From positions 937,001-1,001,000 of the forward strand of contig CAJHZI010000425.1 of assembly GCA_905160935.1 (NCBI GenBank): DNA of 64,000 nt, in the 5' to 3' direction. The translations under genes were made by a program, and so were the position numbers. Positions within the stretch are counted from its first letter, which is position 1. Every line of letters starts with the position of its first letter. Positions 41,501 through 64,000 of the stretch are shown here, in pieces. Below the pieces are notes generated by a model. The model did not search any database. It worked only from the letters and a program-made list of their open reading frames with translations, and was not told the origin of the DNA. The stretch comes from Enchytraeus crypticus (lineage: Eukaryota > Annelida > Clitellata > Enchytraeida > Enchytraeidae).

Positions 41501-44500
41501 AGTTTTAATGATATAGAACCTAGCTAAAATCTCCATCTCTTCAATAGTATCATTTTATTCCATAATATAAGTACTATCTATCCTATTCAGTAATAGGCCT
41601 ATATTAAGCAACGTACTGGTTTTAGGATAGTACTATGATGGTTTTAGGATAGTACTATGATGGTTTTAGGATTGTATTATGATGGTTTTAGGATTGTATT
41701 ATGATGGTTTTAGGATTGCATTATGATGGTTTTAGGATTGTATTATGATGGTTTTAGGATTGTATTATGATGGTTTTAGGATTGTACTATGATGGTTTTA
41801 GGATTGTATTATGATGGTTTTAGGATTGTATTATGATGGTTTTAGGATTGTATTCGGATGGCTTTAGGATAGCATAAGGATAGCTCTAGGAGATTTTGTT
41901 AGTCAGTCGGCTCGTTAAGTTAAGCCGTCGTGATGTGAAGCCATGTGCTTCTGAGCTTGACATGAAGCAATCTTGAGTGTATGCTACTCTGCAGTCTCCA
42001 TCTGAATTAGCCGGAAGCAGTCATATACAACGTAATCAGGTAATGGCGATCAAGAGGATGGGGGGGGGCGGCTTATGCCCATTTTATTATTAACTAAAAC
42101 TTTAGCCGATATTGTTATCTTTGACTTTTAGCGGCCAATATATAAAAAATATTTATCACTACTTTAATTCAATATTCCCCAGATTGAATTTGTCAAAATC
42201 ACCAAATACACGAAGAAGTATCACATAGTGACGTGAGAACTGTAACAAGTCGAGTCGATCTCATTTCTCACGCTGAGGTAGCACTGTGTATAGTGATATA
42301 GAACACTGTAGAGTGGTGACACTGTAGAGTGGTAGCACTGCAGAGTGGTAGCATTGTCTGTAGAGTGGTAGCACTGTAGAGTTGTAACACTGTAGAGTGG
42401 TAACACTGTAGAGTGGTAGCACTGCAGAGTGGTAGCATTGTCTGTAGAGTGGTAGCACTGTAGAGTTGTAAAACTGTAGAGTGGTAACACTGTAGTGTTA
42501 GCATTGTAGAGTGGTAACACTGTAGAGTGGTAGCACTTTAGAGTGGTAACACTGTAGAGTGGTAGCATTGTAGAGTGGTAGCATTGTAGAGTGGTAACAG
42601 TGTAGAGTGGTAGCACTGTAGAGTGGTAGCACTATAGAGTGGTAGCATTGTAGAGTGGTAACAGTGTAGAGTGGTTATTCGGTAGATAACGTGAATCGTT
42701 GGAAATATAAAGTATTTTATTCACTAGTAATGCAAGTGTAAATGTATAGGCAAATCATAATATAATTACATGTATACAGCTTTCAGAATTATTAGATTAG
42801 TCTTTAACCAAATCAGTTGTAAAAAGTTCAATAATCAATCAATCAATAAGAATTTAACGTCCGGTTCCTCGCCATAAGGCAATATCAGGGACGTCTCTGA
42901 TAGGATAGGATTTTTGTTTTTCTTATGGATAGCCTAATGTAGAGATTTTGGATAAATACACATTTGTCAAAAATCGTCCAAGACAACCTCAAGCACCAGG
43001 AAGATAAAGAGAGGATGTAGACTTAGGTTGACCTTCTAAGTGTCAGACATTTTATTCTCCGACTGACTCATCTGGCAAAAGAAAAAATTTCCAACTCAAA
43101 ATGTAGTATTTTAAATTTTTAATTCAAGGAACGTCAAGGAGTATTTGAGTGGCTAACAACTGATAGTTAATGTTAGATAACTATTTAACATTTCATCTCT
43201 CATTAGTTTAATATGACGACATGTTATAGCTAGTTACAATACGCTATGCATAATATTTTAGAATATTTTAACGGATTATAGATATTTTAACAGACATTTC
43301 TCTGCTTAGTTTAATACTTTGACATTGTAACTCAAGTACTTCAATAGGGATAATTTAACATTTCGAGCTGATTATAGGCGATTCAGTGGATCAACAATTC
43401 ATTAGGATGGCTTGCTGTTTGAACGTTCAAGGTTCTGTGGAATCCGGGGATTTAGACCTTAAATCTCTAGCAATCAAGGACAGTTCTAGCAGCGGTAAAA
43501 AGGATTCAAATGGTAACCATTCAATGCACGTTACTATAGTTCTATCCATTTAATATAAGTATTAATGATATAAGGAGTAATGATAAGCCGATAAGTAGCA
43601 ATGATGTAAGTAGTAATGATGTAAGTAGTAATGATATAAGTATTAATGATATATCAGTTGAAATATAAGTAGTAAACAGGATAGTTTGGGTAAACAGGAT
43701 AGTTTGGGTAAACAGGACAGCTTTGGTAAACAGGATAGTTTGGGTAAACAGGATAGTTTGGGTAAACAGGACAGCTTTGGTAAACAGGATAGTTTGGGTA
43801 AACAGGATAGTTTTCTCAGGTAATGACGCCCCTGCCCAGTAAATGTTTGTCGAAGCTGAGGAAGGCACAGGGGGCCCACCTCGTCCCCAAGAATTCCCCA
43901 AGAAAATTTTATAAAATAACAAGAATGCTAGATGATTTAAAGTGCTACTCATATGTAGACATGTCGAGGAAAACAGAAGAGTGGAGGCGTTATGTACCAT
44001 GGACCTACCAGTAGGCAGGGCGCTAAGAGAGAGATAAGTAGTAATGCAACAAGTAATATCATGCCACAAATGCCTCTCCTGTTTATTGTACGCGTGTTAT
44101 AAATCTCTACTTAATAAATATTTGATTTTAGTTTAATGCGGACATGCAAATGTTACTGATTACAAAAGTAGTTATTCTAGTTTAGTTTTAGTAGCATTCG
44201 AGAGATGTTATAAGTAAGTTCATTTAATAAATTGTGTAGTTGTCATCGAAAGACATAGGAACAATCGATTCATCAAATCATTCTTCATCAGTCAATCGAA
44301 TCAGTCTTCATCAAATGCGGCATTTTATCCGATAATTATAAAAGTTAACAATATAATTACATTCTCTGTCTGACAATTAATTGAAGTTTGCCGTTCAGTT
44401 TTCATAAATAAGTGTTGCGATACTTCAGTAATGCCACAGAGGAAGCTACAAAGCCGTTAGCGCCTACATGTATTTCGATATGAGAATTATTTACGGTGAG

Positions 44501-53200: not shown

Positions 53201-56200
53201 AAACATATTTATACATACAAATTATCATAGAAACAATGAAAATATAGTTTACCTTTCTTCGACGGACCTAGGGGGGGCCCGGGCCCCCTGGGCCCCCCCT
53301 GGATCCGCCACTGAAGACGATATATTTTATAAAGTTGGAGAAATCGATAATAATATAATAATTTAAGGTTCTCAAGAACAGCACTTATAAACTTAAAACT
53401 TCAAATTTGGTACAGATTTCTTAAGCTAGGTTCAAATACAGTAACATATGACAATAAGGAATTCATGTAACCATAAAATAAAGACTACCTTGATTTCATT
53501 TGATTCCTCAGAACGTTTTAGATAAATAGCGTTAAAAACTAGACATTATTTCGGAGAAATAAAGACCATGCATATATTTGTGCTACTCATAAATGATTCG
53601 TACAGGGCTGAGGAACTCTGGACTTCCACTAAGGACGCTATGGAGCTGCTGCATCCATCAGGATCTGCGTCCACGAGTCCCAGTCTTAGAGAACAGGTCG
53701 CCAAGGCCAACAGGATCCTTCGACGTTCGCATCGCTTGGGAGGTCTGTTCATGTTCTAGCGTTATTACACAGATCTGTTACTTTAAATTTACGAACAACT
53801 AACTATAATTATTATTCAACATTGCACGTGGTTTTAACGTCGTCTTTTCGCTGCTGAAGATAATGTTTGAGACATCTAAAGCTGATTAGATAACCACGTA
53901 AAGATTTGAAGTCCAAGACACATTTTAATTAGAAAAGACCGAAGAAAAAAGACGTTCTTAAACTATGAAAATTCGTTAATTTTATAGTATTTCAAGAGAA
54001 AATATTTGCGTTTTACACGAGATCATGGACGGTGTTTGAACAGCTCAAGCAAAATTGATTTATTTTATATATTCCGACTACACAAACAATATAACATATG
54101 CAATATAAAATTATCAACTGCTCAGTTTTAGCAGTCAAGTTATTCAATGAAATAGAATTGTATAATTTCGGTTTTGTTTTGTTTCAATTGGACTGCATAT
54201 TTTTATTTTTTATTTGAAAGGATCTTTATACAAGAATAGAAAGAACAATATTACCGGTGATGTATCAGGGAGCAAAGATAAACAGAAGCGCTCATCTGAC
54301 ATTATGCAAGGTTTGGTTTTAATGATGTTTGGCTATTAGAAAATCTGTTTTTGACGTTTAATAATTTGTGTAAGATTTTTAAAAATTTGTATTGAAGTTG
54401 GCGATTTTCAAAATAGTTATATTACTATGACCTGACATATGGTTAGTAAGCTGTTAATATAATGGCCTTTTTAACTTTATACCTGAGAATTTTTGATCTC
54501 ATGGCGTTTTTACAATTTAGAACCGTATACCAGTTTTTCGCATAGAATGCCTGTTCAGAGATAATAATAAAATGGCACTGCACTAAACAGACAAATGTGA
54601 TACCCAGATCTTTTTCTCCGAAATGAAGAAATTTTAAACCTTAGCGAAAAATTGAAGAAAATATTAAATGTTTAGAGGAAAACAAAAACATCATGAAACA
54701 AAAGGCATCGGTCGTTGAACAGGAGTTGGCATATGGAGAGCACTCTTAAGTAGACTAGGTACTAATTGACGAATAGACTTAGACTTAAAAGACTTAGACT
54801 TAAGATACTTAGACGAGATAATAGACTTTGACTTAATAGACTTCGACTTAGTGGACTTAGACTTAGTAGCATTAAACTTAATAGATTTAGACGAGATAAT
54901 AGACTTTGACTTAATTTATATACTTTGACTTAATAGACTTCGACCTAATAGGCAGAGACGAGATAATAGACTGCGACTCAATAGACTTAGACTTTATAGA
55001 CTAAAAATTGATTACAACATTTAGATAGATACAAATTTTGCTCATACAGCAAAAACATCAATCTTGGCATCATCCATGCTTTCTCAGGAAGGAGAACGTA
55101 GATCATGGAAAGTGCGATTCAGTCGTATTATATAGGATTGTAGGTGTATAGATGAGGTGTAATATCTCAGTCCGAATAAATAATAACAATGGCTTACTTA
55201 CCGAATCCGTAACTAGTTAATCATCCTGGGCTCTATCATATATACTACGAACATTTGCATGCAATGTATGTTTTGATTTTGATATTCGTAATATTAGAAA
55301 TTTTCATAGACGACAGTAGCGCTCTAATCATGCTGCTGTTGTTGTTTGTTTAGTGTTCGATGTTCTCATAAACAATTACTGTAGAGTAGTGATGTTGCTG
55401 TAGCGCTGTTCGAAGCCGTTGAAGATGGAGATTTGGTTAGAGTGCAGGATATGCTCACAGAGGCAGATTGGAATGACCTGGATATAAACAGGTGTGTGTG
55501 CGCACGTATGTATGGTTGTATGCGTGTATGTGTGTGTGTGCATGTCTGTATGGTGGCATGCGTGTATGTGTGTGCACGTATGTATAGTGGTATGTGTGTA
55601 GGCCTATGTGTGTGTGTCAAAGACGCATCTTCTAAAAATATAGAACGCCATTACAAGCCGATCTACTGAAGCTATCTGCAGAAAAATAAATTGTGCTGAA
55701 GAGAACTTATGTTTTAATTACACGGTGCCAGTCAGATGTTCTGTATCTAAGGTTTTCCATAGGCATTTGTAATGAGCTCCCATATGAAACTAAGTGGAAA
55801 ATTAAATTGTGATACAATTTTATTTGATCATAGCCTACCTACTAGCTTTTAGTGTATAAAGCTGGTAAAGCTAATGCTAACCTCAGTTTCCTCACTCGAA
55901 AGCGATGTCAGTGACGGGAGAGCCCAGGAATACTGCCATCAATGGATGCACTTTAAATAAAGAATTTAAACACCGTCTAATCTTTCCTAGACCATAATAA
56001 ATGTGAGAGATTTATATCATTATAGTCCAATATTGTCCCACATTTTATTGTATTTTCACAATTCACATAGAATTTATGTGCGGTAGCTTTATGTGAATTT
56101 GTATTGCAGTGTTAACTCTGACGACTTGACATGTCTTGATACGGCCATGCTCACAAACCACGCCCACATTGCTCGTCTGCTCATCCTTCACGGAGCTCAA

Positions 56201-59200
56201 GAAAACCGAAAACGTGGGTGTTAAACTTTCACTTTTCTGTTTTCCGAAGGGTCATGCATTTTTAATCATTACTTCAAAGCTTTCTGACTTTACGTAAGGA
56301 TCGTTTGTTGTTGTAGCGGCCTTTTTTTCTCTAACAAGTCTCTAATAATTTATACATCATTATACAGAAAAGGAAAGAAGAAATGACAGGAGCAGCATGT
56401 GAATTATTGATGTAAGCGCAATTACATTACAGTAGAAACACTAGCGCAATATTAAAGCAATAGAACGTGATCCGCAGCTGAGATCTGTTAAGGAGTTAGA
56501 TTTCCCAACAAGTTAAGCAGAATGCATAAATTTGCTTAAGTCCGACACCAGAAAATTCTGAGTCAGGTGTAATAATATTTGACGGTTTAGTAGTACTATT
56601 CATCTTTCTAAAGATTATGTCATATTCATAGCCGACTTTTCTGATATTGGTAGTAATTTGAAAATATGCTTATTATAAAGTATCTGCAATTAAAGATATT
56701 ACATGAGATACTCTACATGTATGTATTTAAAATAATAATACTTCTCCTGTTCAACTTGACATTCAGTAGTTTACGGACAAATGGTATTGCTTCATTGCGC
56801 TCATGTCCTTTATGAAGTAGGCTAACAAGAGAGTGTAGCACATTACTAGAGCGTGAGACTCTGAATCGTTGGAATTAGACTCAAATCCATGTACTTGATT
56901 CCATGTTCAATGTACTTGTATGTCGTATGTGTATGCTCTATATTGGTGCGTATATTTGTTGTATGTATAGTCTATGTTGTTATGTATTTTTAAATGTTGT
57001 AAGCTCTATGTGGTTGTATGCATTTGAATTCCGTATGTATGTTTAATGTTGTTGCGTGTATTTAAATGCTATATCTATACTCTCTGTTATTGTATGTATT
57101 TGGATGCTGTATTTATACTCTCTGTTGTTGCATATATTTGGATGCTGTATGTATAATCTATATTCCTGCATTTATTTGAATGTTGTATAGATAGTCAATG
57201 TTGCTGCATAAGAATGTTGTATATAGGCTCTATATTGTTGCATCATTGCATGTATTTGAATTTTGATTATATAGTCTATATTGTTGGAGTACTTGTATGT
57301 TGATGTACGTTCTATGTTATTGTTGTTGTTGTACACACAGTACAAGAGTCAGTGGGACAGATGGTGAGGCACGTTGAGGGACTGTACGGAGAGGCGGCGC
57401 TGAGAGTCTCGGAGCTGAGACTGGCCCTCAGCTCATCTACTTCCTCGAGCAACAACCAGTCCAGTCTGCTGAAGGTTAAATTAACCCTAAGTAATTTAAT
57501 AAAAATCTTAAATCTGCATTTATATATTGTTATCAGATTCCAGTTATTTTATTGTTTGATGGCAACAACCAATCCAGTCTGAAGAAGGTTAAATTAGCTA
57601 AACTTAGTTTCATAAAAATCTTAAATCTGCATTTATATATTGTTTATATTAGTCAGATTCTATCTGTATGAAGTCTTTTATCTTTATGATTTTGCCTGAT
57701 GATCTCAATGAAATAGAAGGTTAATATCCAGAGAAATAAAGAACTTTCATAGCTTATTATTTATTGAGGGCATATTAACAAACAATATCAATGATGCAAC
57801 ACTGAAATTTGAACAAATGAACATGCAGTTAATCCCAGGTCCAAAAGCATTTCGAAAATGTATTCTATCATCAACTCTATACGATCCGATAACTTTAAAT
57901 TAATTGTTACTTTTTCGACAACTTCGAAATAAATCAACTGTTTTACATTATACTTATGTGCAATTAAATGACTAAAGATAGCAAAACCTACATTTAATGG
58001 ATCTATCCTGCGGGAATCAAAATGTAAAGTATTATAAAAAATATGACCTAGTAAATGCATGTAAAGGCTGGTAAAGCTAATGTTAACGTCAGTTTCCTCA
58101 CTAGAAAGCGATGTCAGTGACGGGCGTGCCCAGTATTTGATCCCCGCATATGCATGTACAGATCCGCATTGAATATCTTACCGATATCGCCACTGGCTCC
58201 AGCCAGTGAACAGTTATTTCTTCTGGTGCTAAATGCAATACGTTATTTACTGTTTAACCACCAACATCTATCTGCAATATCTAATATATAAATATCTGCA
58301 ATAAATAATAAGATGAGGTAAAGAAATGTCGAAATTTTTCTACGAAAAAAAATACTTCAACCGCTGACTGATGCCGTATATCACAAGTCATTTAATGTGC
58401 TACTTTATTTTGCAGGAAAATGAGAAATCTTTGATTCATTGGCAGCTGAGGAAAAATTTGTTCAGTCAGATGAAATCTGTTCTCGTCTCTTCAAGTAATA
58501 TAACTATCTGCTTTCTTATTACCCGATACCTTAAACCTGTTTTCTTACGGCCTGCTTTATAAAAGTGCGCTTTCTTACTGCCTACTTTCATACTGCCTGC
58601 TTTCTTACTGCCTGCTCGATAACTCGGCGCTTTTCTATTTATCTAATTAATTTTTGCAAAATTGAGTCTGCAATTTGAGTTGAGATTATTAATTTTAGCC
58701 AGAGAGAAACTTTGAAATTAATTAATTAATTTTAACCAAATCAGTGCGCTTAGTTTGCTATTTGTTCTAGTTGAATTTTAACTACTTCTGTCATTTAGAA
58801 TACTTCCTTGTTTTATATTATCTACGTTTAGTGTATACGTATTTTATTTTGATATTTTTCTAAACATTATATTTAGAAAAAAATATTTATAAATATTTGA
58901 CTTGACATACTGATCATATTACTGATTGTATAACTATGGTATTCAGTAATATTCATAATTTTAGCAAACTATGTTTCATAAATAATTAATATTTAATAAA
59001 TAATTTTTTGTGGGATACGGTCTTTAAGAGAGGTATGAAAATTAGGGGATTAATTGGTGCTAAGGTATGGGATAGAGAGATGTGGAGAAGGTCTCTTATT
59101 ATCCCGACCCAATCTAAACTAGGTTTTAAGGGAAGATGATGATGGTGATTTAATAACCTGGAGCCAGTGGTGATGTCTATAAGACATTCGACCGCGGATC

Positions 59201-62200
59201 ATTATGTGCGGGGTTCAAACCCTGGGCTCGCCCGTCACTGCCATCGCTTTCGAGTGAGGAAGCTGACGTTAACATTAGCTTTTTATCAGCTTTAATAAAT
59301 AATGTATGCTGTTTATATGACAATACTGATGTCGTACAGTTTTTGAAATCTCATTGTTTCTCTTTTCTAAGATCCACCCAAAGAACCTGAGAGTGTAATT
59401 CTGAACGTCTCGGGTGAGAGTTCAATCACCATCACATTCCTCGAATCAGCTGATACATCTCATGGCCTAGCCACACACTACAGGGGTAAGGCTAACAATT
59501 TATACGTGAACATTTTCAGATTAATTTAAGTGCCACAAAATGATAACCAGCGGAGCTTAGCTTTTTTACAAAACAGAAATTGTTAGTCATTGTCCATCAC
59601 ATTGTGGATGATTTATCTGTTTCAATTTCCATCTTTCCATTTCTCTCTCTTTCTCTATTCCTATTTCTCCCTGTCTATATCTCTCTCTTTCTCTCTCTCT
59701 GTCTCTCTCTCTCTTCCACTTTCTCTCTTTCTATTTAATCTCTTGCAATTTCGCTTCTAATTTCAGTTGAGTGGAGTAAGACGGAAACATTCGAGACCTT
59801 ATATGGTTGTAAGATTGTGGATGAGCCGGATTTTGAAACGACTACAAACGAGAGATTTGGCTACCGGATCTACATAACGAATCTGTCCCAGGGAGAACTC
59901 TACTACATCCGGTTGTCAGCAGGAAACTTCAGCGGATACAGTAAAAGAGTCCCAAGCTCTCCACCTTGCGGGAGACCTTCAAGTATGGGACACAAGTTTA
60001 CATCTATCAACGATCAGTCAATCAATCATCGAGTAGTTAATCAATCAATCAATAATAATTTAACGTCCGGTTCCTCGCCATGAGGCAATGACAGGAACGT
60101 GATTAACGGCCATATAAAGCTAGAAGCTAACGTTGACGTCAGTTTCCTGACTCGTAAGCGACGATAGTGACGGGCGAGCCTACGATTTGAACCCCGCACA
60201 TACTGATCCGCGGTCGAGTACCTTAACGACGTCGTCACTGACTCCAGCCAGTATATAGTTATACAGTAACATTATTATCTGTAACTATAATAAAGTAACT
60301 ATAATAAATGACTTTTTTCACTTTTGCAAAATTTGACTCGATTTTGCACAGTTTGGCGGAACCAGTTTTTATATATCAACGATCAGTGGATCAACCACAG
60401 AGTATTTACTGGCTTTTACAATTATGGCTTTATGTACACAATTGTCTGAATTATGTAACTATAATAAAAAGTTACATTTCATTTTTGCAAAATTTGACTC
60501 GATTTGCAGCAATGGTGATATATCGTTATTCGATTCACAACAAATTATTTAGTAAATGAAACTAAAAACAAATTTGCTAAAAATTGTGCAAAATCCAGTC
60601 TAAATATCAGCAATTAAAGCTGTCGCTAAGTCATCACGCCAATGCACACTAAAATGGAATATATGCAGTCTATATAAAAAATTGTTCATGGGCTTGAAAG
60701 TTTTGAAGTAATTTTATAAATTTTATATACAGATTTCTTTCTATGTTACTGCACTTTGGATCGAGAATTCGCTATGTTAAAACCAGTCAACTTTATAGGA
60801 GTTACATGTATAACAGATCCTTCATGGATTTTGTATATAGGCCTACATATGTAGTAATCTGTCATCTTCCTCGAGCCCATGCTTAAAGAAATACTATAGA
60901 GTAAAATGCTTTGATTAAGTCATAACATTTTTATCCTGTTTCATCATGCCATTCATATGCTTAATGTTTAATGTTTAATTGAGTATATCATGCAAAGGAA
61001 TCTCTATACTTAACAACAGTTACAGTAAAACGTGCAATATTCAATAAAACGCACACAGTAAAAATCACTAAAAAACCAAATAACTATCATACGTAACGTA
61101 GCTTAAATATTGGAATCTGATAAATTTATTAGTGAGTAGAATTTAAATGGAATGATCTAGCTAAACTATGTGTCGTAAGACTCTTCTTAAAGCTATCAGG
61201 CTTATCAGAGTGTCTGTTTCTTATGCGCCATTACGTTTCACAGATTGGAGAGAACAGAGCGGAATGAAGCCGCGCTGCGATGGAAAGATTCAGCTTATGG
61301 ATCAGCTCTTTCAAGACTTGAAGGACTTAAGACTCCCTGATGCTGCAGAAATTAAAGGTATGATGAAAGTTAATAAATTAATTATAAAATAACTCCTTTG
61401 CAAATTAACATGATTGAATTTCTTTACTGCACACACTGCTTGATCGATGGCTGATTAAAAAACTGAACTAATGTGAATTCTCAGTTGCTAATTGTCCTCC
61501 TCTTACTTCGCCTTCAGTTATTTTTTTATTTCTATATTTCGTACCTGTTTTAGATGAAACGGTATGTAATACAATCCCGGTTCCGGGCCGGAAACTGACG
61601 GTTAAGAAGAGTCTAAAATACATTTTTTCTACTTCTCCCAAAAAATTTCAACGGACAGTGAAAAGGTATGCCTATGTCAGTTGCATTTTGTAATTAATTA
61701 CTTAGTTATACTTTGATATTGCTGAACATTTATTGTCATGTTTTAGAAAGGTTTTTATCTTGACTTGTAATTCAAATACCCATAGTGAGTGGAAATATTT
61801 TCATGGCGGTTGAAAGCGCATGATTAATGCATTCTTTCTGAAATAATTTAAAATTTAACGGAGACTATGTATTTCTGATAATTGAGCGGTTGTCAGTTAT
61901 ATTTTTCATTTTTTTCATCTCACTGATTCTACAGACATGTATGGTTATATAGCTGTTTGCATAAGTGCTCGATTTAGTCTTGGACAAGTGTAGCCCTCCA
62001 ATCATGCTGTTGTTGCTCTTATGAAATATATTAGTTTATTTCTGGATGTCGTAATGTATTGTCCGGTGTACATGTATATCTGGGTAATATATTTCAATTT
62101 TTTTCGAGTGCATATAATGACGCTAGGATTGCAGCGCTGTATTCGGGCTGTTTTGTGTATTACAGGGGTATATGGGTTCTCTGATACATTATAAGAGTGC

Positions 62201-64000
62201 TCATTTGGGTGCTCTCAATATGGTAGAGTTGTGTATCTGGATACTCTGATATATTATATAGGACTATGCAGCTGAGAGTTTTGCTATATTTTATTATATA
62301 CTGTCGGTGTATATATCTTGGTGCTCTGCTATATAATAGAGATGTGTACCCGGATGCTCTATTGTTTTAGGCGTCTATATGTGTATATGGCTGCTCTAAT
62401 GTTTTAGAGGTGTATATGGGTGCTCGAATGCTTTAGGGGTGTATATAGGTGCTCTAATGTTTTAGGGGTGTATATAGGTGCTCTAATGTTTTAGGGGTGT
62501 ATATGGGTTCTCTAATGTTTTAGGGGTGTATATAGGTGCTCTAATGTTTTAGGGGTGTATATGGGTGCTCTAATGATTTAGGGGTGTATATAGGTGCTCT
62601 AATGGTTTAGGGGTGTATATGGGTGCTCTAATGATTTAGGGGTGTATATGGCTGCTCTAGTGTTTTAGGGGTGTATATGGGTGCTCTAATGTTTTAGGGG
62701 TGTATATATGGCTGCTCTAATTTGCTGTGGAGATCGTATACTTGTCACACACGAGGATACCATTCCAGTTGTAGAAGTCCACGAGGAGTTCTCGTCCAGT
62801 TCAATTCTCAGTGATTACTACTGGCTGATCAAGGTTCGAATCTTGCCAAACCTGATCAGTCTCATCTCATGTATTTGAAAATATTCGAAAGTTTCTATAC
62901 TAAATCTTCGCAATAATTATCAATATTAACAGCTTAATAATAATGCCTGAAGGAATAATATTATAATTAAATATAACAATAATAATAGTAACATCATTCC
63001 TGATGTCAGTCTAGAAGCGGAGGCAGAAGTTAAACCTATATAAACGCTAATAATTATTATTTAGTAGAATTATAAAAATAAATAAATATTCTTTTAATAT
63101 TGTGTTTCCAATTATAGGTCTCTTATAATTGATTGCTCTCAGATTCGATCAGTAAATTAAATAAACGGGCAAAAACCAATTACTATAACTATTACTAAGT
63201 ATAACTAGTGTAACTAATTTACGGGGGTATACAATCTAACGTGTAAGCCCGATAGTAAGTATTACAATTAATCATATCTCTACGTGTGTGACGTCATTCG
63301 ATACGTCATGCTGTATAGAAAAGTATTTTCGTATTAACAGATAGCGTGCACGTGGAAGGATGTCAAATCCTTGAGGACTGATCTCGAGAAGAGTTCCAGT
63401 TCCGGTTCAATGCAGTTCAGATACAGACTCCTGCAGGCTTTATCTCTACTCCAGGTACTACTATATCTCTACTCCAGGTACTAATCTATCTCTACTCCAG
63501 GTACTAATCTGTCTCTACTCCAGGTACTAATATGTCTCTACTCCAGGTACTAATATGTCTCTACTCCAGGAGATTAAATTTATTTCGAGATTAATTTGTA
63601 AGAAGGCATTCTTACATGTATAATTAAACCATGAGTTTAATCATAATTCTATTATTAAAATCATAATACTATTATTAAAATCATAATACTATTATTAAAA
63701 TCATAATACTATTATTAAAATCATAATAATATTATTAAAATCATAATACTATTATTAAAATCATTATGATAAATCATAATACTAAGATTTTGTTTTAGAC
63801 GGCGGTTGGTGTGCAAGATTTGGGTCAGTTTTATCACAAGCCGATCAGAGACAACGCTGGGGCCATTGTTCTCACTACCGTAAAATGTGTTAAGACCACC
63901 AAACACATTTCTCTCGGGCAGTTCATGCGGTGGATGCCGTTGAGTAAGGTCTGCAGAAGATCTGCGGAGACCAACTCAGGATGCGAACCCACGGCACTGG
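32368..64000 (+). CDS. ANKFN1: ANKFN1 (Nmf9 / wide awake) orthologue, 18 exons, 3'-incomplete
   Basis: Eighteen exons join without a phase conflict into about 737 codons, running off the right edge. The match to ANKFN1 is strong from the ankyrin region onward: [10 protein letters not shown], then L-L-I-L-H-G-A, then a fibronectin-III domain (Y-R-V-E-W-S ... [12 protein letters not shown]), [26 protein letters not shown] and I-R-D-N-A-G. In vertebrates and flies this cytoplasmic protein is needed for neurological function; the fly protein acts in clock neurons to adjust excitability and sleep. The N-terminal exons (32368-55111) are less conserved, and their membership rests on splice phase and colinearity. 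Introns are large (first 13 kb) and repeat-filled. The true start may lie upstream; an ATG is available at 32372. Confidence 0.85.
32650..32805 (-). repeat. Family D copy with (GAT)n tail
   Basis: On the minus strand it reads 'ctccagaaattgccac', 'tcccgacactggttaaactg', 'ggatttaagggaagatgatg'. It shares its body with 45905-46110 ('accaacgtcagaa', 'ggcattcggttg') and its tail with 38510 and 59085. Confidence 0.75.
32895..33240. repeat. (CT)n tracts interrupted by a SINE1 copy
   Basis: Pyrimidine dinucleotide runs at 32905-32935, 33079-33142 and 33166-33236 flank the SINE at 32938-33073. Confidence 0.9.
32938..33073 (-). repeat. SINE1 copy
   Basis: Minus-strand copy inside (CT)n. It has 'ccactagctccagcc' head, GGATTTGAACCCCC B-box region and GACTGACGTTTACATTAGC-like end. 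Confidence 0.86.
33567..33647. repeat. (GA)n microsatellite
   Basis: About 80 bp of pure GA. Confidence 0.95.
33781..33905 (-). mobile_element. L2-like LINE 3' end, truncated copy
   Basis: The terminal ~105 bases, intact stem-loop and (TTATTA) tail, almost identical to the 22604 copy. The near identity suggests recent activity of the family. Confidence 0.88.
34072..34271. repeat. (GA)n-rich tract
   Basis: 200 bp of imperfect GA repeats with G-runs. Open frames on both strands here are low-complexity artefacts. Confidence 0.95.
35354..36298 (-). pseudogene. Retroelement C-terminal fragment, diverged subfamily (copy 3)
   Basis: Longest copy of the PD-(D/E)XK-like region. It encodes [23 protein letters not shown] ... 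[26 protein letters not shown] and W-D-V-T-V-I-D-T, then E-T-M-G-P and L-Q-R-F-N-A-V. Broken by an 11-bp insertion near 35755 that repeats TGGGAC exactly at the W-D step. The 3' end is the hairpin ACCCC(A)GGT ... ACCGGGGT (35354-35377) with an (AAT)n-type tail. Parent element probably a restriction-endonuclease-type LINE (inferred). Confidence 0.75.
36300..36354. repeat. (ATT)n/(TTTTA)n tail
   Basis: A/T simple repeat forming the 3' tail of the copy at 36355-36660 and separating it from the truncated 5' end of the previous copy. Confidence 0.9.
36355..36660 (-). mobile_element. Same retroelement, 3'-end copy (copy 4)
   Basis: Terminal hairpin GCCCTGGGC-TGTAAAGG-GCCCTGGGC (36355-36380) followed on the minus strand by coding sequence for [16 protein letters not shown] and [14 protein letters not shown]. 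The 5' truncation point abuts a second (ATT)n run (36664-36709). Confidence 0.85.
37046..37153. repeat. (GAT)n-rich minisatellite
   Basis: Nested GATGATGATGATAATGATGACGAC units, about 24 bp, three copies, in GAT background. Confidence 0.93.
37451..37572 (-). repeat. SINE1 copy
   Basis: Minus-strand copy with 'gtcagtgacgggcgagccca', GGATTTGAACCCCGC and 'ctactgactccagccag'. Confidence 0.86.
38060..38329 (-). other. Unassigned 89-codon open frame, cysteine-rich
   Basis: The frame reads [17 protein letters not shown], then [10 protein letters not shown] and L-C-D-Q-C-C-N-F. The composition is more protein-like than its neighbours and an acceptor-like AAACCAG lies upstream on the minus strand. 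No homology is recognised. It lies antisense inside the first ANKFN1 intron. Coding status uncertain. Confidence 0.2.
38510..38602 (+). repeat. Family D 3' end with (GAT)n tail
   Basis: CCCGACCCTAGTTAAACTGG, then GATTCAAGGAAA and (GAT)n. Only the last ~35 bases of the family are present ahead of the tail. Confidence 0.75.
38910..38965 (-). repeat. Family E terminal hairpin with (GA)n tail
   Basis: On the plus strand (CT)n, then TTGTGCACTGCCTACTGTCA and GGTCCATGGTATATA. Reading on the minus strand, hairpin and then GTGCAC and (GA)n. Confidence 0.75.
39000..40970. other. No gene seen (ANKFN1 intron 1)
   Basis: AT-rich intronic DNA without shared repeats. The minus-strand frame at 39810-40202 is AT-driven and lacks motifs. 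Confidence 0.5.
40985..41302 (+). repeat. Two adjacent tandem arrays (25-bp and 14-bp units)
   Basis: The first has ~5 units of 'tgatgtacatatgatcatag', the second ~13 units of 'acatgcagtcatac'. An open frame through the second is an artefact of its period. Confidence 0.93.
41622..41880 (+). repeat. 22-bp minisatellite
   Basis: About 11 units of 'gatggttttaggattgtatt' plus 'at'. Each unit contains TTTTAGG, which looks like a 3' splice site on the gene's strand. Confidence 0.93.
42285..42680 (+). repeat. 16-bp minisatellite with longer-period variants
   Basis: About 24 units of 'actgtagagtggtagc'. A ~95-bp block including 'gcattgtctgtagagtgg' is repeated within it. Confidence 0.93.
42836..42905 (-). 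repeat. Family C 3' end (SINE/LINE tail) with (TTGA)n
   Basis: On the minus strand ACGTCC ... GCC-TTAT-GGC ... GGAACCGGACGTTAAATTC followed by TTATTGATTGATTGATT. This is the same 3' end as the long SINE1 copy at 60027-60252. Confidence 0.8.
43672..43812 (+). repeat. 18-bp minisatellite with three-unit higher-order pattern
   Basis: Units of 'gggtaaacaggatagttt' (A) and a 19-bp variant with GACAGC (B) are arranged A-A-B-A-A-B-A-A. Confidence 0.93.
43985..44035 (-). repeat. Family E terminal hairpin
   Basis: TACCATGGACCTACCAGTAG then GCAGGGCGCTAAGAGAGAGA: hairpin end followed by a short (GA)n. Confidence 0.7.
45533..45642 (+). CDS. ANKFN1: ANKFN1 exon 2 of window
   Basis: The acceptor TTCAGCTACAG and donor G/GTGAGA bound 110 bp (2 + 36 codons). 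It encodes [15 protein letters not shown] and a Ser/Thr-rich stretch ending K-F-L-L-W-T. Phase joins both neighbours. Confidence 0.68.
45905..46110 (+). repeat. Family D copy, near full length
   Basis: 'tgtccgggctgtttgaataa', 'gtagaaggcgactaaagcaa', 'aacgtcagaaatggcattcg', then CCTAGTTAAACTAGG and a GAAGATGATGAAGATGA tail. Confidence 0.75.
46285..46360 (+). repeat. Family D 5' fragment
   Basis: 'gtgtccgggccacttcagaa' and 'tagaggagactaaataag' match the head of 45905-46110. Confidence 0.5.
46510..47280. repeat. (TA)n clusters
   Basis: Long TA tracts at 46510-46605, 46787-46826 and 47143-47275 with ordinary intronic DNA between them. Confidence 0.93.
48709..48743 (+). CDS. ANKFN1: ANKFN1 microexon (35 bp)
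   Basis: A strong acceptor (GTTTCCGTATTTCAG) and a consensus donor (GTGAGT). It encodes [11 protein letters not shown]. Phase 0 in and phase 2 out fit both neighbours; because 35 is not a multiple of three, skipping it would break the frame. Confidence 0.66.
49327..49387. repeat. 25-bp hairpin with one mismatch
   Basis: Arms GATTGGAGACAAACTAATAA(AATAG) and complement, loop of 11 bases, a single A-C mismatch. It lies in an ANKFN1 intron. Confidence 0.92.
50389..50450 (-). repeat. Family E terminal hairpin with (GA)n tail
   Basis: (CT)n, TTTTAGTGCACTGCCCACTG and GCAGGTCCATGGTGCA on the plus strand. Confidence 0.75.
51395..51495 (+). repeat. Strongly diverged SINE1-like copy
   Basis: ACAGGGTTCAATTCCTGT resembles the B-box segment, and ACGCTTTCGAGACAAGAAAC with TAGCGTAAAACTATC follows the SINE1 body order. 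Low identity. Confidence 0.4.
51991..52128 (-). repeat. SINE1 copy
   Basis: Minus-strand copy with TCACTGGCTCCAGCCAG (plus-strand text) and AGATTTGAACCCGCAC. Confidence 0.86.
52265..52411 (+). CDS. ANKFN1: ANKFN1 exon 4 of window, basic Ser/Arg-rich
   Basis: 147 bp between a tandem acceptor (GTAGTAG) and a consensus donor (C/GTGAGT). It encodes [13 protein letters not shown] and [10 protein letters not shown]. Strikingly GC-rich (runs of G and C in 52335-52385) against an AT-rich background. One leading base completes Gly from the microexon. The R-R-x-S and R-Q-R-S-x-S sequences look like basophilic kinase sites (inference). Confidence 0.66.
52548..52590 (-). repeat. Family C 3' end, interrupted by hAT element
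   Basis: The minus strand reads CGTCTT-TATC-AAGACG, GTGGAACAGGACGTTAAATC: the same hairpin plus GGACGTTAAAT terminus as 42836, with a different stem sequence. The other half of the stem region continues at 53314 beyond the inserted element. Confidence 0.65.
52596..53313. mobile_element. Non-autonomous hAT-type transposon
   Basis: 718 bp with inverted ends CAGGGGCGGATCCAGG and CAGTGGCGGATCCAGG (complement of right end). It is flanked by AAGACGAG and AAGACGAT, an 8-bp target duplication with one difference. The interior has poly-G/C stretches near both ends and no transposase; short open frames are incidental. Confidence 0.9.
53606..53742 (+). CDS. ANKFN1: ANKFN1 exon 5 of window
   Basis: The acceptor GATTCGTACAG and donor G/GTCTGT bound 137 bp (1 + 45 codons + 1). 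It encodes [15 protein letters not shown] and [15 protein letters not shown]. Low-complexity-free, and phase-compatible on both sides. Confidence 0.7.
54221..54310 (+). CDS. ANKFN1: ANKFN1 exon 6 of window
   Basis: The acceptor TTTTTTATTTGAAAG and a weak donor G/GTTTGG bound 90 bp. It encodes [12 protein letters not shown], then S-K-D-K-Q-K-R-S-S. The L-Y-K-N start recalls the segment ahead of the ankyrin repeats in vertebrate ANKFN1. Phases fit. Confidence 0.65.
54755..55010 (+). repeat. Degenerate 'gacttaatagacttagac' tandem repeat
   Basis: Hexamer-based array (AGACTT, AATAGA) with longer-period variants in the intron just upstream of the exon at 55050. Confidence 0.9.
55050..55111 (+). 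CDS. ANKFN1: ANKFN1 exon 7 of window
   Basis: The acceptor TTTGCTCATACAG precedes [10 protein letters not shown], comparable to K-T-S-V just before the ankyrin region of the vertebrate protein. The end is chosen at TGGAAA before GTGCGA, because this is the only donor in phase with the next exon. That donor is weak, so the 3' boundary is less sure than the 5'. Confidence 0.62.
55303..55355 (+). mobile_element. L2-like LINE 3' end, short decayed copy
   Basis: GACGACAGTAGCGCTCTAAT followed by CATGCTGCTGTTGTTG. Only the 3' half of the terminal stem-loop remains. Confidence 0.7.
55385..55491 (+). CDS. ANKFN1: ANKFN1 exon 8 of window: first ankyrin repeat
   Basis: 107 bp encoding [16 protein letters not shown] then V-Q-D-M-L and W-N-D-L-D-I-N. 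It aligns with the first ankyrin repeat of ANKFN1 (M-F-E-A-V-E-x-x-D-L). The acceptor is ATTACTGTAG and the donor G/GTGTGT, which starts a 120-bp (TG)n-like tract (55492-55615). Confidence 0.85.
55856..55930 (-). repeat. SINE1 3' fragment
   Basis: It covers only the SINE1 body and 3' end. The 5' truncation falls near the B box, after 'gagcccagga'. Confidence 0.83.
56110..56213 (+). CDS. ANKFN1: ANKFN1 exon 9 of window: second ankyrin repeat
   Basis: 104 bp encoding [29 protein letters not shown]. Classic ankyrin pattern (L-x-x-A, I-x-x-L-L-x-x-G-A). The acceptor is TGTATTGCAG and the donor C/GTGGGT. Confidence 0.9.
56890..57335 (+). repeat. Degenerate ~40-bp tandem repeat in intron
   Basis: About ten units built on 'tctatgttgttgcatgtatt' and 'tgaatgttgtatgtatagtc', running up to the acceptor of the next exon. 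Confidence 0.85.
57341..57474 (+). CDS. ANKFN1: ANKFN1 exon 10 of window: linker helix
   Basis: 134 bp encoding [15 protein letters not shown] and [10 protein letters not shown], then a serine/asparagine-rich end. It corresponds to the helical linker between ankyrin and fibronectin-III regions of ANKFN1. The donor AAG/GTTAAA is duplicated 113 bp downstream. Confidence 0.85.
57449..57674 (+). repeat. 113-bp tandem duplication spanning an exon-intron junction
   Basis: The unit begins with the exon's last ~26 bases (GCAACAACCAGTCCAGTCTG) and continues through the donor into the intron (AATCTTAAATCTGCATTTAT). The second unit starts at 57562, with its donor copy at 57588. Confidence 0.92.
58064..58206 (-). 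repeat. SINE1 copy
   Basis: Minus-strand copy with a small insertion (CATATGCATGTACAG) after the B-box region. Confidence 0.87.
58416..58494 (+). CDS. ANKFN1: ANKFN1 exon 11 of window
   Basis: 79 bp, phase 0 in and 1 out, acceptor TTATTTTGCAG, donor A/GTAATA. It encodes [14 protein letters not shown], like the W-x-x-R-Y-K-L-Y-x-x-M-K segment ahead of the fibronectin-III domain in the vertebrate protein. Confidence 0.85.
59085..59150 (+). repeat. Family D 3' end with GATGAT tail
   Basis: CCCGACCCAATCTAAACTAG, GTTTTAAGGGAAGATGATG. Only the terminal ~45 bases remain. Confidence 0.72.
59157..59294 (+). repeat. SINE1 copy
   Basis: Plus-strand copy with B box GGGGTTCAAACCCTGGG, the best tRNA-like B box of the family in the window. 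Confidence 0.88.
59372..59485 (+). CDS. ANKFN1: ANKFN1 exon 12 of window: fibronectin-III, first half
   Basis: 114 bp encoding [23 protein letters not shown] and T-H-Y-R. These are the A-C strands of an FN3 fold (P-x-x-P ... I-x-V/I-x-F). The acceptor is TTTTCTAAG and the donor G/GTAAGG. Confidence 0.9.
59767..59982 (+). CDS. ANKFN1: ANKFN1 exon 13 of window: fibronectin-III, second half
   Basis: 216 bp encoding [32 protein letters not shown], then S-S-P-P-C-G-R-P-S. The Y-x-x-R-x-S-A-x-N-x-x-G pattern is the F-G region of FN3. The donor is A/GTATGG. Confidence 0.93.
60027..60252 (-). repeat. Long SINE1 copy retaining the family C 3' end
   Basis: Minus strand: the standard SINE1 head and body, then CTAGCTTTATATGGCCGTTA and a 3' end with GCC-TCAT-GGC, GAGGAACCGGACGTTAAATT and (TTGA)n. 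It is the only copy here with this extension, and the extension occurs alone at 42836. Confidence 0.85.
61244..61357 (+). CDS. ANKFN1: ANKFN1 exon 14 of window
   Basis: 114 bp encoding [11 protein letters not shown], then [14 protein letters not shown]. It matches S-N-W-K-D ... L-E-S-L-L-Q-Q-V just after FN3 in the vertebrate protein. The acceptor is GTTTCACAG and the donor G/GTATGA. Confidence 0.9.
61554..61665 (+). CDS. ANKFN1: ANKFN1 exon 15 of window
   Basis: 112 bp encoding [24 protein letters not shown]. It is equivalent to the T-G-R-K-x-x-x-x-x-S-L-K-x-L-F segment of ANKFN1. Phase 2 at the donor (AG/GTATGC). Confidence 0.9.
62365..62697 (+). repeat. 29-bp minisatellite made of the splice acceptor of the next exon
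   Basis: Eleven units at exact 29-bp spacing (starts 62402 to 62692) plus one outlier at 62365. The consensus is TTTTAG followed by GGGTGTATATGGGTGCTCTA and ATG. The last unit is the genuine acceptor and first ~20 coding bases of the exon at 62698. All twelve keep the AG. Confidence 0.95.
62698..62833 (+). CDS. ANKFN1: ANKFN1 exon 16 of window
   Basis: 136 bp encoding [20 protein letters not shown] then I-P-V-V-E-V. It aligns position by position with G-L-Y-I-A-V-I-F in the vertebrate protein, so the first residues, although written in minisatellite-unit sequence, are genuine coding. The start is fixed by phase 2 of the previous exon. The donor is AAG/GTTCGA. Confidence 0.9.
63341..63454 (+). 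CDS. ANKFN1: ANKFN1 exon 17 of window
   Basis: 114 bp, phase 0 both ends. It encodes [11 protein letters not shown], a serine-rich turn and [15 protein letters not shown]. It matches S-C-M-W-E-D-I-R ... L-x-A-x-A-Q-L-Q. The donor CCAG/GTACTA is the first of a series. Confidence 0.9.
63441..63569 (+). repeat. 23-bp minisatellite made of the splice donor of exon 63341
   Basis: Units 'tatctctactccag/gtacta' with CAG/GT donors at 63455, 63478, 63501, 63524 and 63547. A sixth copy reads CAG/GA and has lost the GT. Confidence 0.95.
63640..63785 (+). repeat. 20-bp AT-rich minisatellite
   Basis: Six to seven units of 'ttaaaatcataatactatta' between the last two exons. Confidence 0.92.
63799..64000 (+). 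CDS. ANKFN1: ANKFN1 exon 18 of window, cut by the window edge
   Basis: The acceptor AAGATTTTGTTTTAG is followed by an open frame to the edge: [37 protein letters not shown] and E-P-T-A-L. It aligns with L-G-R-V-Y-Y-E-P-I-K-D and W-M-Q-I-S-K-L ... E-P-T-A-L of ANKFN1. Remaining exons lie to the right. Confidence 0.9.

Follow-up and report, generated by a model that had tools for sequence, protein, structure and literature searches.

How is the start of an exon found when it is preceded by a row of near copies of itself, and how does such a row arise? Both questions are posed by exon I of an ANKFN1-like gene in a 64-kb window (the whole stretch of DNA analysed, positions 937001-1001000 of contig CAJHZI010000425.1, forward strand) of an assembly of 524 Mb and 802 contigs; all coordinates below are positions in this window unless a locus is named. 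The intron in front of exon I ends in a 29-bp minisatellite whose units repeat the exon's own 3′ splice site. We consider, with a probability of about 0.8, that this array is a splice-junction minisatellite of the kind termed a mirage, here in an annelid, and that it was made by repeated tandem duplication across the junction.

Tandem Repeats Finder reported the array with a period of 29, 91% matches, no indels and a score of 559 (Table 1). Its unit consists of GTTTTAG, the seven bases of the intron end, and 22 exon-derived bases, close to the 3′ splice site plus first ~20 coding bases given in a preliminary description of this DNA; exon I's own version of the 22-base part has 24 bases, the two extra being AT. 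The units combine exon and intron sequence of one boundary, and the array is intronic and abuts the authentic boundary, its last copy being the exon start at 62698. Searching the window with the 29-base unit pattern at up to three mismatches gave 10 matches, against 0.00 expected from 100 shuffles. Eleven AGs stand in exact 29-bp register, ending at 62407, 62436 and onwards to 62639, 62668 and 62697, the last of which is the real acceptor, and 37 bp upstream of the register there is one more TTTTAG, the twelfth copy with an AG, whose end is at 62370. The earlier count of an AG in all twelve copies, eleven of them decoys, was therefore correct, with one copy standing further out. Summed over the 10 in-register decoys there are 14 differences from the consensus, and three of the decoys (5, 7 and 8) do not differ at all from the real acceptor between -18 and at least +10. 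Upstream of 62370 lie about six weaker, degenerate copies with spacings of 29-47 bp, traceable to about 62145; with AG columns masked, the stretch 62080-62350 held nine local maxima (two being adjacent ties), compared with a mean of 1.165 in random blocks, and 1 of 1,000 window blocks reached nine.

The identity of the real acceptor was read from the gene model, in which nine exons from 57341 to the window end join stop-free in a single phase on the + strand. Because exon H ends in phase 2, the first base of exon I has to complete a codon. For each of the 57 AGs in 61682-62831, exon H was linked to the sequence that follows the AG, and the frame was followed through exon J. It stayed open for just three AGs, ending at 62697, 62799 and 62811; 62697 is the first of these, and the other two, although stop-free, would remove 34 and 38 codons. 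From phase and the absence of stops, we infer that 62697 is the acceptor used in the animal. Every one of the 11 decoys leads to a premature stop, at codon 13 for the site ending at 62370, codon 18 for the nearest decoy and codon 20 for the other nine. These results place at codon 18 the TAA noted earlier within 54 bases of the nearest decoy (exon start 62669), and they extend to all decoys, with stops after 13-20 codons, a claim first checked for that one alone: that use of a decoy would be unproductive.

Membership of the gene in the ANKFN1/Nmf9/wide awake family is indicated by ankyrin, FN3 and GLYLGYLK regions in that order. The ankyrin-like exons B and C were judged by eye only, and the fn3 match is weak (23.2 bits, below the Pfam cut-off of 25, with a still weaker Pur_ac_phosph_N match over the same stretch). 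A motif scan located an intact GLYLGYLK in a downstream exon (locus L010:993); this motif is described as near-invariant in ANKFN1/Nmf9 in the available portions of two papers (PMC4488434, PMC9210315). Exon I itself had no match in Pfam or the PDB. Its start, GVYMAALI, had been entertained as a worn GLYLGYLK eroded by the satellite, a reading that was dropped given the intact motif downstream.

The exon I array is not unique even within this gene, where second and third cases were observed. The 3′ end and donor of exon J seed a 23-bp array that is the mirror image of the one at exon I, with decoy GT donors after 63477, 63500, 63523 and 63546 and a further copy, ending at 63569, whose GT has been lost. 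Use of any of the four decoy donors would lead to a stop, at codon 36 or codon 10. At exon D, a longer segment across the donor is present in two copies. Both acceptors (exon I) and donors (exons J and D) are therefore affected, and cases of both kinds were also found in the myosin genes surveyed below.

Three further arrays in the window lie near exons or possible exons. A 20-bp array of 6.3 copies (63639-63764) stops about 35 bp short of exon K and excludes its acceptor, and a GT-rich 38-bp array (55492-55600) begins exactly at the donor GT of exon B (55491/55492), with no exon sequence inside. An 18/54-bp array, GTAAACAGGATAGTTTGG (43672-43813), ends beside an open frame, possibly an exon, that starts at about 43826.

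Table 1. Gene-model exons, arrays and junction copies in the window, with junction repeats in loci of the myosin sample.
Feature	Position	Strand	Detail or basis
Exon D, ANKFN1-like	57341-57474	+	Phase-consistent chain
Two copies of 83-nt segment across exon D donor (57474)	57449..57644	+	Spacing 113 bp, 87% identical
Exon X, ANKFN1-like	58416-58494	+	Phase-consistent chain
Exon E, ANKFN1-like	59372-59485	+	Phase-consistent chain
Exon F, ANKFN1-like	59767-59982	+	Phase-consistent chain
Exon G, ANKFN1-like	61244-61357	+	Phase-consistent chain
Exon H, ANKFN1-like, upstream neighbour of I	61554-61665	+	Ends in phase 2 (...AAA AG); phase-consistent chain
Degenerate older array part	62145..62370	+	About six weak, irregularly spaced copies plus AG copy ending 62370; local maxima against random blocks
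29-bp minisatellite	62381..62721	+	11.7 copies, ten in-register decoy AGs before the real one; Tandem Repeats Finder, unit-pattern scan
Real acceptor AG of exon I	62696-62697	+	First stop-free AG among 57; phase chain
Exon I, ANKFN1-like	62698-62833	+	First 24 bases are the repeat's exonic part plus AT; phase chain, repeat comparison
Exon J, ANKFN1-like	63341-63454	+	3′ end and donor seed second array; phase-consistent chain
23-bp donor minisatellite, CTCTACTCCAG/GTACTAAT	63441..63570	+	5.7 copies, period 23; Tandem Repeats Finder, gene model
Exon K, ANKFN1-like	from 63799	+	Phase-consistent chain
Junction repeat, L026			70 bp, 3 copies
Junction repeat, L037			54 bp, 2 copies
Junction repeat, L047			37-44 bp, 5 copies
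Junction repeat, L023			140 bp apart, 2 copies

We surveyed how often junctions have intronic copies in 77 cases, 21 from the ANKFN1-like gene and 56 from an outside sample of 30 loci cut out of the 81 listed matches of a myosin-head search, in which junctions were placed by an automatic rule. A junction was scored when the 24 bases centred on it recurred at 18/24 or better within 900 bp of intron. The donors of L024 and L028, for which the rule found none, and the low-complexity donors of L035 and L041 were left out; the L026 donor was reset manually once its repeat had come to light, and the acceptor of exon B was set by hand. Copies were found for 11 of 77 junctions, where 0.56 were expected from the flanks of other loci: 3/21 in ANKFN1 and 8/56 in myosin genes, or, by type, 4/41 acceptors and 7/36 donors. 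The splice dinucleotide (AG or GT) was intact in the copy at 9 of the 77 junctions and at 6 of the 56 from myosin.

These counts were set against three kinds of control position. Mid-exon anchors never recurred (0/180, with two reaching 17/24). Recurrence was seen for 102 of 2,000 random positions in the window and flanks, exons unfiltered, and for 125 of 2,000 positions taken 200-580 bp away from myosin exons. Against these, 11/77 gave p = 0.0024 and p = 0.015, respectively, and 9/77 intact sites against the pooled 227/4000 gave p = 0.042, the ANKFN1 cases having been known beforehand in all three comparisons. For myosin alone, 8/56 gave p = 0.025 against 125/2000 and p = 0.0086 against 102/2000, and the 6/56 intact sites gave p = 0.17 and p = 0.07. 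An earlier, looser count at exon edges found 11/80 at 20/24 against 0.56 expected, its control including overlapping ANKFN1 flanks; random positions then recurred in 34/600 and 49/600 trials and mid-exon positions in 0/60, and the count included L048, which the stricter one missed. Splice junctions in this small sample thus share in the introns' tandem duplications and are not spared or avoided; a true excess over other positions is not established.

A dispersed GTCAGTTTCCTCACT-like repeat occurs near 55885-55920, 58090-58130 and 60135-60170, in L022 and elsewhere, its exact 15-base core being present four times in the window (both strands) and in 12 of 48 fetched loci; it explains the match scored for the L022 donor. 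In L041, the start of a myosin exon is copied in four decoy acceptors that keep their AG and alternate with GATT repeats; the best match lies some 320 bp upstream.

We propose that slippage or unequal exchange produced a tandem duplication reaching from 7 bases before the junction to ~24 bases into exon I, and that the duplication was then repeated. Later homogenization would have left two zones, one young and regular beside the exon, the other older and decayed further upstream. Coding constraint would have held the copy in the exon, while the intronic copies were free to drift and may have lost two bases in the process. On this account the array is one product of a genome in which intronic tandem duplication runs at a high rate, splice junctions included. 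Some points weigh against the account. The survey is small, covering one gene and one protein family, with myosin junctions placed by rule and one (L026) corrected by hand; two of the eight myosin cases, the donors of L022 and L037, have copies without an intact splice dinucleotide, and the L022 donor 'junction' was misplaced inside the dispersed repeat; and the presumed use of the last AG at exon I is read from phase and a lack of stops.

The strongest competitor reverses the direction of events, with an intronic minisatellite that spread over the junction and either overwrote the start of the exon or supplied it. Exon I does match the unit nearly throughout its first 24 bases, and a 22-bp array elsewhere in the window (TGGTTTTAGGATTGTATTATGA, 11.5 copies, 96% matches, 41617-41870) carries TTTTAG in its units with no recognised exon adjoining, so such arrays need not derive from splice sites. 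Against this, exon I has the two bases, AT, that the units lack and its frame requires, and the older, decayed copies sit away from the exon. A 23-base pattern of the exon I unit (no mismatch, one two-way position) was found in only 1 of 48 fetched loci, the one holding the array, and the copied pieces at exons D and J and in myosin loci L026 and L037 are, by eye, plain coding sequence plus junction. We therefore consider an origin in the satellite unlikely and favour the direction from exon to array, in agreement with the earlier claim that the exon is the source and the satellite the derivative.

If the array copied the junction, the splicing machinery would still have to settle on its last member. 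The identity of decoys 5, 7 and 8 with the real site means that local motif strength cannot decide and that position and exon context must. Probably exon I is defined jointly with its donor at 62833, which would favour the last AG; this is our preferred cause. At 9 of the 11 in-register sites, the real one included, the AG is preceded at 8 nt by a branch-like CTAAT (62436 has CGAAT and 62668 CTAGT). AGs less than about 12-15 nt from a branch point can be bypassed, according to the text available of PMC1431707, and an AG so close to its CTAAT may be passed over for that of the next unit, 37 nt off. Such scanning would treat decoys and real site alike, and it was rejected as sole cause since CTAAT at nine sites including the real one does not single that AG out. 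RNA structure hiding the decoys was dropped as well: the fold of the array was not decisive (z = -1.63, with 5 of 100 shuffles as good), and the small hairpin open to each unit would cover the real AG too.

The preliminary description went further and saw in copy number a dial on productive splicing. In a fuller form of this reading, a regulated fraction of transcripts would be lost to stop-bearing isoforms through decoy use, with the decoys kept functional by selection. Three features suit such a dial, namely the stops that follow use of any decoy, the identity of three decoys with the real site and the AG kept in every copy. The last of these calls for no selection in an array this young, however: by chance, 14 differences over 10 in-register decoys would spare every AG with P = 0.37, which gives selection on the decoy AGs no support. 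Among the old copies, scored with AG columns masked, two of the 10 listed positions (62208 and 62352) have an in-register AG, which speaks neither for nor against selection. Moreover, there is no clear excess of junction copies over tandem duplications elsewhere in introns, which is what a lack of function would predict, decoy-bearing junctions also occur in myosin genes, and in the accessible parts of two papers amphioxus junction copies are reported as not disturbing splicing (PMC3087553, PMC3902484). We regard the dial as improbable, although some leakage into stop-bearing isoforms would be compatible with these objections. The same low odds apply to its genome-wide extension, in which junction minisatellites would, by extrapolation, place polymorphic decoy arrays at thousands of junctions, and at some, ANKFN1 included, copy number would set the loss to stop-bearing isoforms; were it true, such arrays would amount to a fast-mutating control of gene output.

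An assembly or sequencing artefact is very improbable: tandem arrays are difficult to assemble, and a 601-base genome search matched one place only, with no second haplotype to cross-check copy number, but the units differ from one another and decay away from the exon, and comparable copies of other lengths stand at other junctions.

The exon I array belongs to a known kind; of interest are its occurrence in a new phylum, how many near-identical decoys it holds and how frequent such copies seem to be. In the available text of the two amphioxus papers, mirages are described in Adh3 and the globins BflGb6 and BflGb9 (PMC3087553), with PGBD5 added and troponin C cited later (PMC3902484). As at exon I, they are tandem copies across an exon-intron boundary, on the 5′ or 3′ side of the exon; many copies keep AG or GT, and inner units are homogenized whereas cluster edges are not. 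Adh3 units span 10-72 bp, those of the globins about 150-160 bp, and the 11 decoys at exon I compare with up to six units in an amphioxus globin. All mirages named in these papers are from cephalochordates; the host here is most likely an annelid, a difference that we take as a circumstance and not as bearing on a defining trait. Two haplotypes of one amphioxus mirage carried six and three units (PMC3087553), and reverse transcription PCR (RT-PCR) and Adh3 data are said to suggest regular splicing (PMC3087553, PMC3902484).

NAGNAG acceptors are spaced 3 nt apart. The closely spaced acceptors treated in the portion seen of PMC1431707 lie less than 12 nt apart and resemble exon I in that several AGs compete for one exon; at exon I the AGs stand 29 bp apart, within a repeat that takes in part of the exon. 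Variable tandem repeats of minisatellite size in recently duplicated human genes, located in segmental duplications and with units of about 30 bp and four copies on average, can sit at exon-intron boundaries and alter gene structure. Their main effect is longer exons or, it is thought, the activation of cryptic sites and creation of new introns, and the available text has no case of decoys arrayed beside an existing splice site (PMC2812944). Tandem duplication that copies splice signals (PMC2891723, in part) is paralleled by the exon J donor array, CAG/GTACTAAT, with AG/GT in its first five copies; the copies here differ in lying inside existing introns, with no new intron seen. Earthworm intronic minisatellites are not described as crossing a splice junction in the text available (PMC12783039), and an intronic minisatellite of C. 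elegans has been linked to multiple alternative splicing (PMC4039745, in part). Among the open-licence papers listed by our searches we recognised no mirages outside lancelets, related human boundary repeats aside.

Near-identical splice-site arrays around one exon offer a natural test of how the spliceosome chooses among equal sites. Copies at 11 of 77 sampled annelid junctions, nine with intact dinucleotides and all in a group remote from the lancelets, would mean that tandem duplication often produces junction arrays, and that these may routinely supply new introns, exon ends and splicing errors.

The host was placed by its mitochondrial genome, a contig (C802) with COX1-COX2-COX3-ND6-CYTB-ATP6-ND5-ND4L-ND4-rRNA-ND1-ND3-ND2 on one strand. 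Pfam matched COX1 and ten more frames, nine of the ten above cut-off and ND6 below; ND4L was identified by eye, as was ND2, whose frame had no match beyond the general family Proton_antipo_M. The large rRNA was located on the contig, and the small rRNA was not found in the same search. Annelid features listed in the available part of PMC2639372 are ND6 and CYTB directly after COX3, ATP6 between CYTB and ND5, an interchange of ND5 and ND4L/ND4, and ND3 between ND1 and ND2. Three annelid features can be read directly off the gene order. The interchange of ND5 and ND4L/ND4 presumably fits it as well. The host is thus most likely an annelid and not a lancelet; amphioxus, which the resemblance to mirages had first suggested, was rejected on this gene order. 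Short COX1-like matches with stops also occur in nuclear contigs C361, C424, C796, C373 and C166 (L003-L007) and are probably nuclear copies of mitochondrial DNA.

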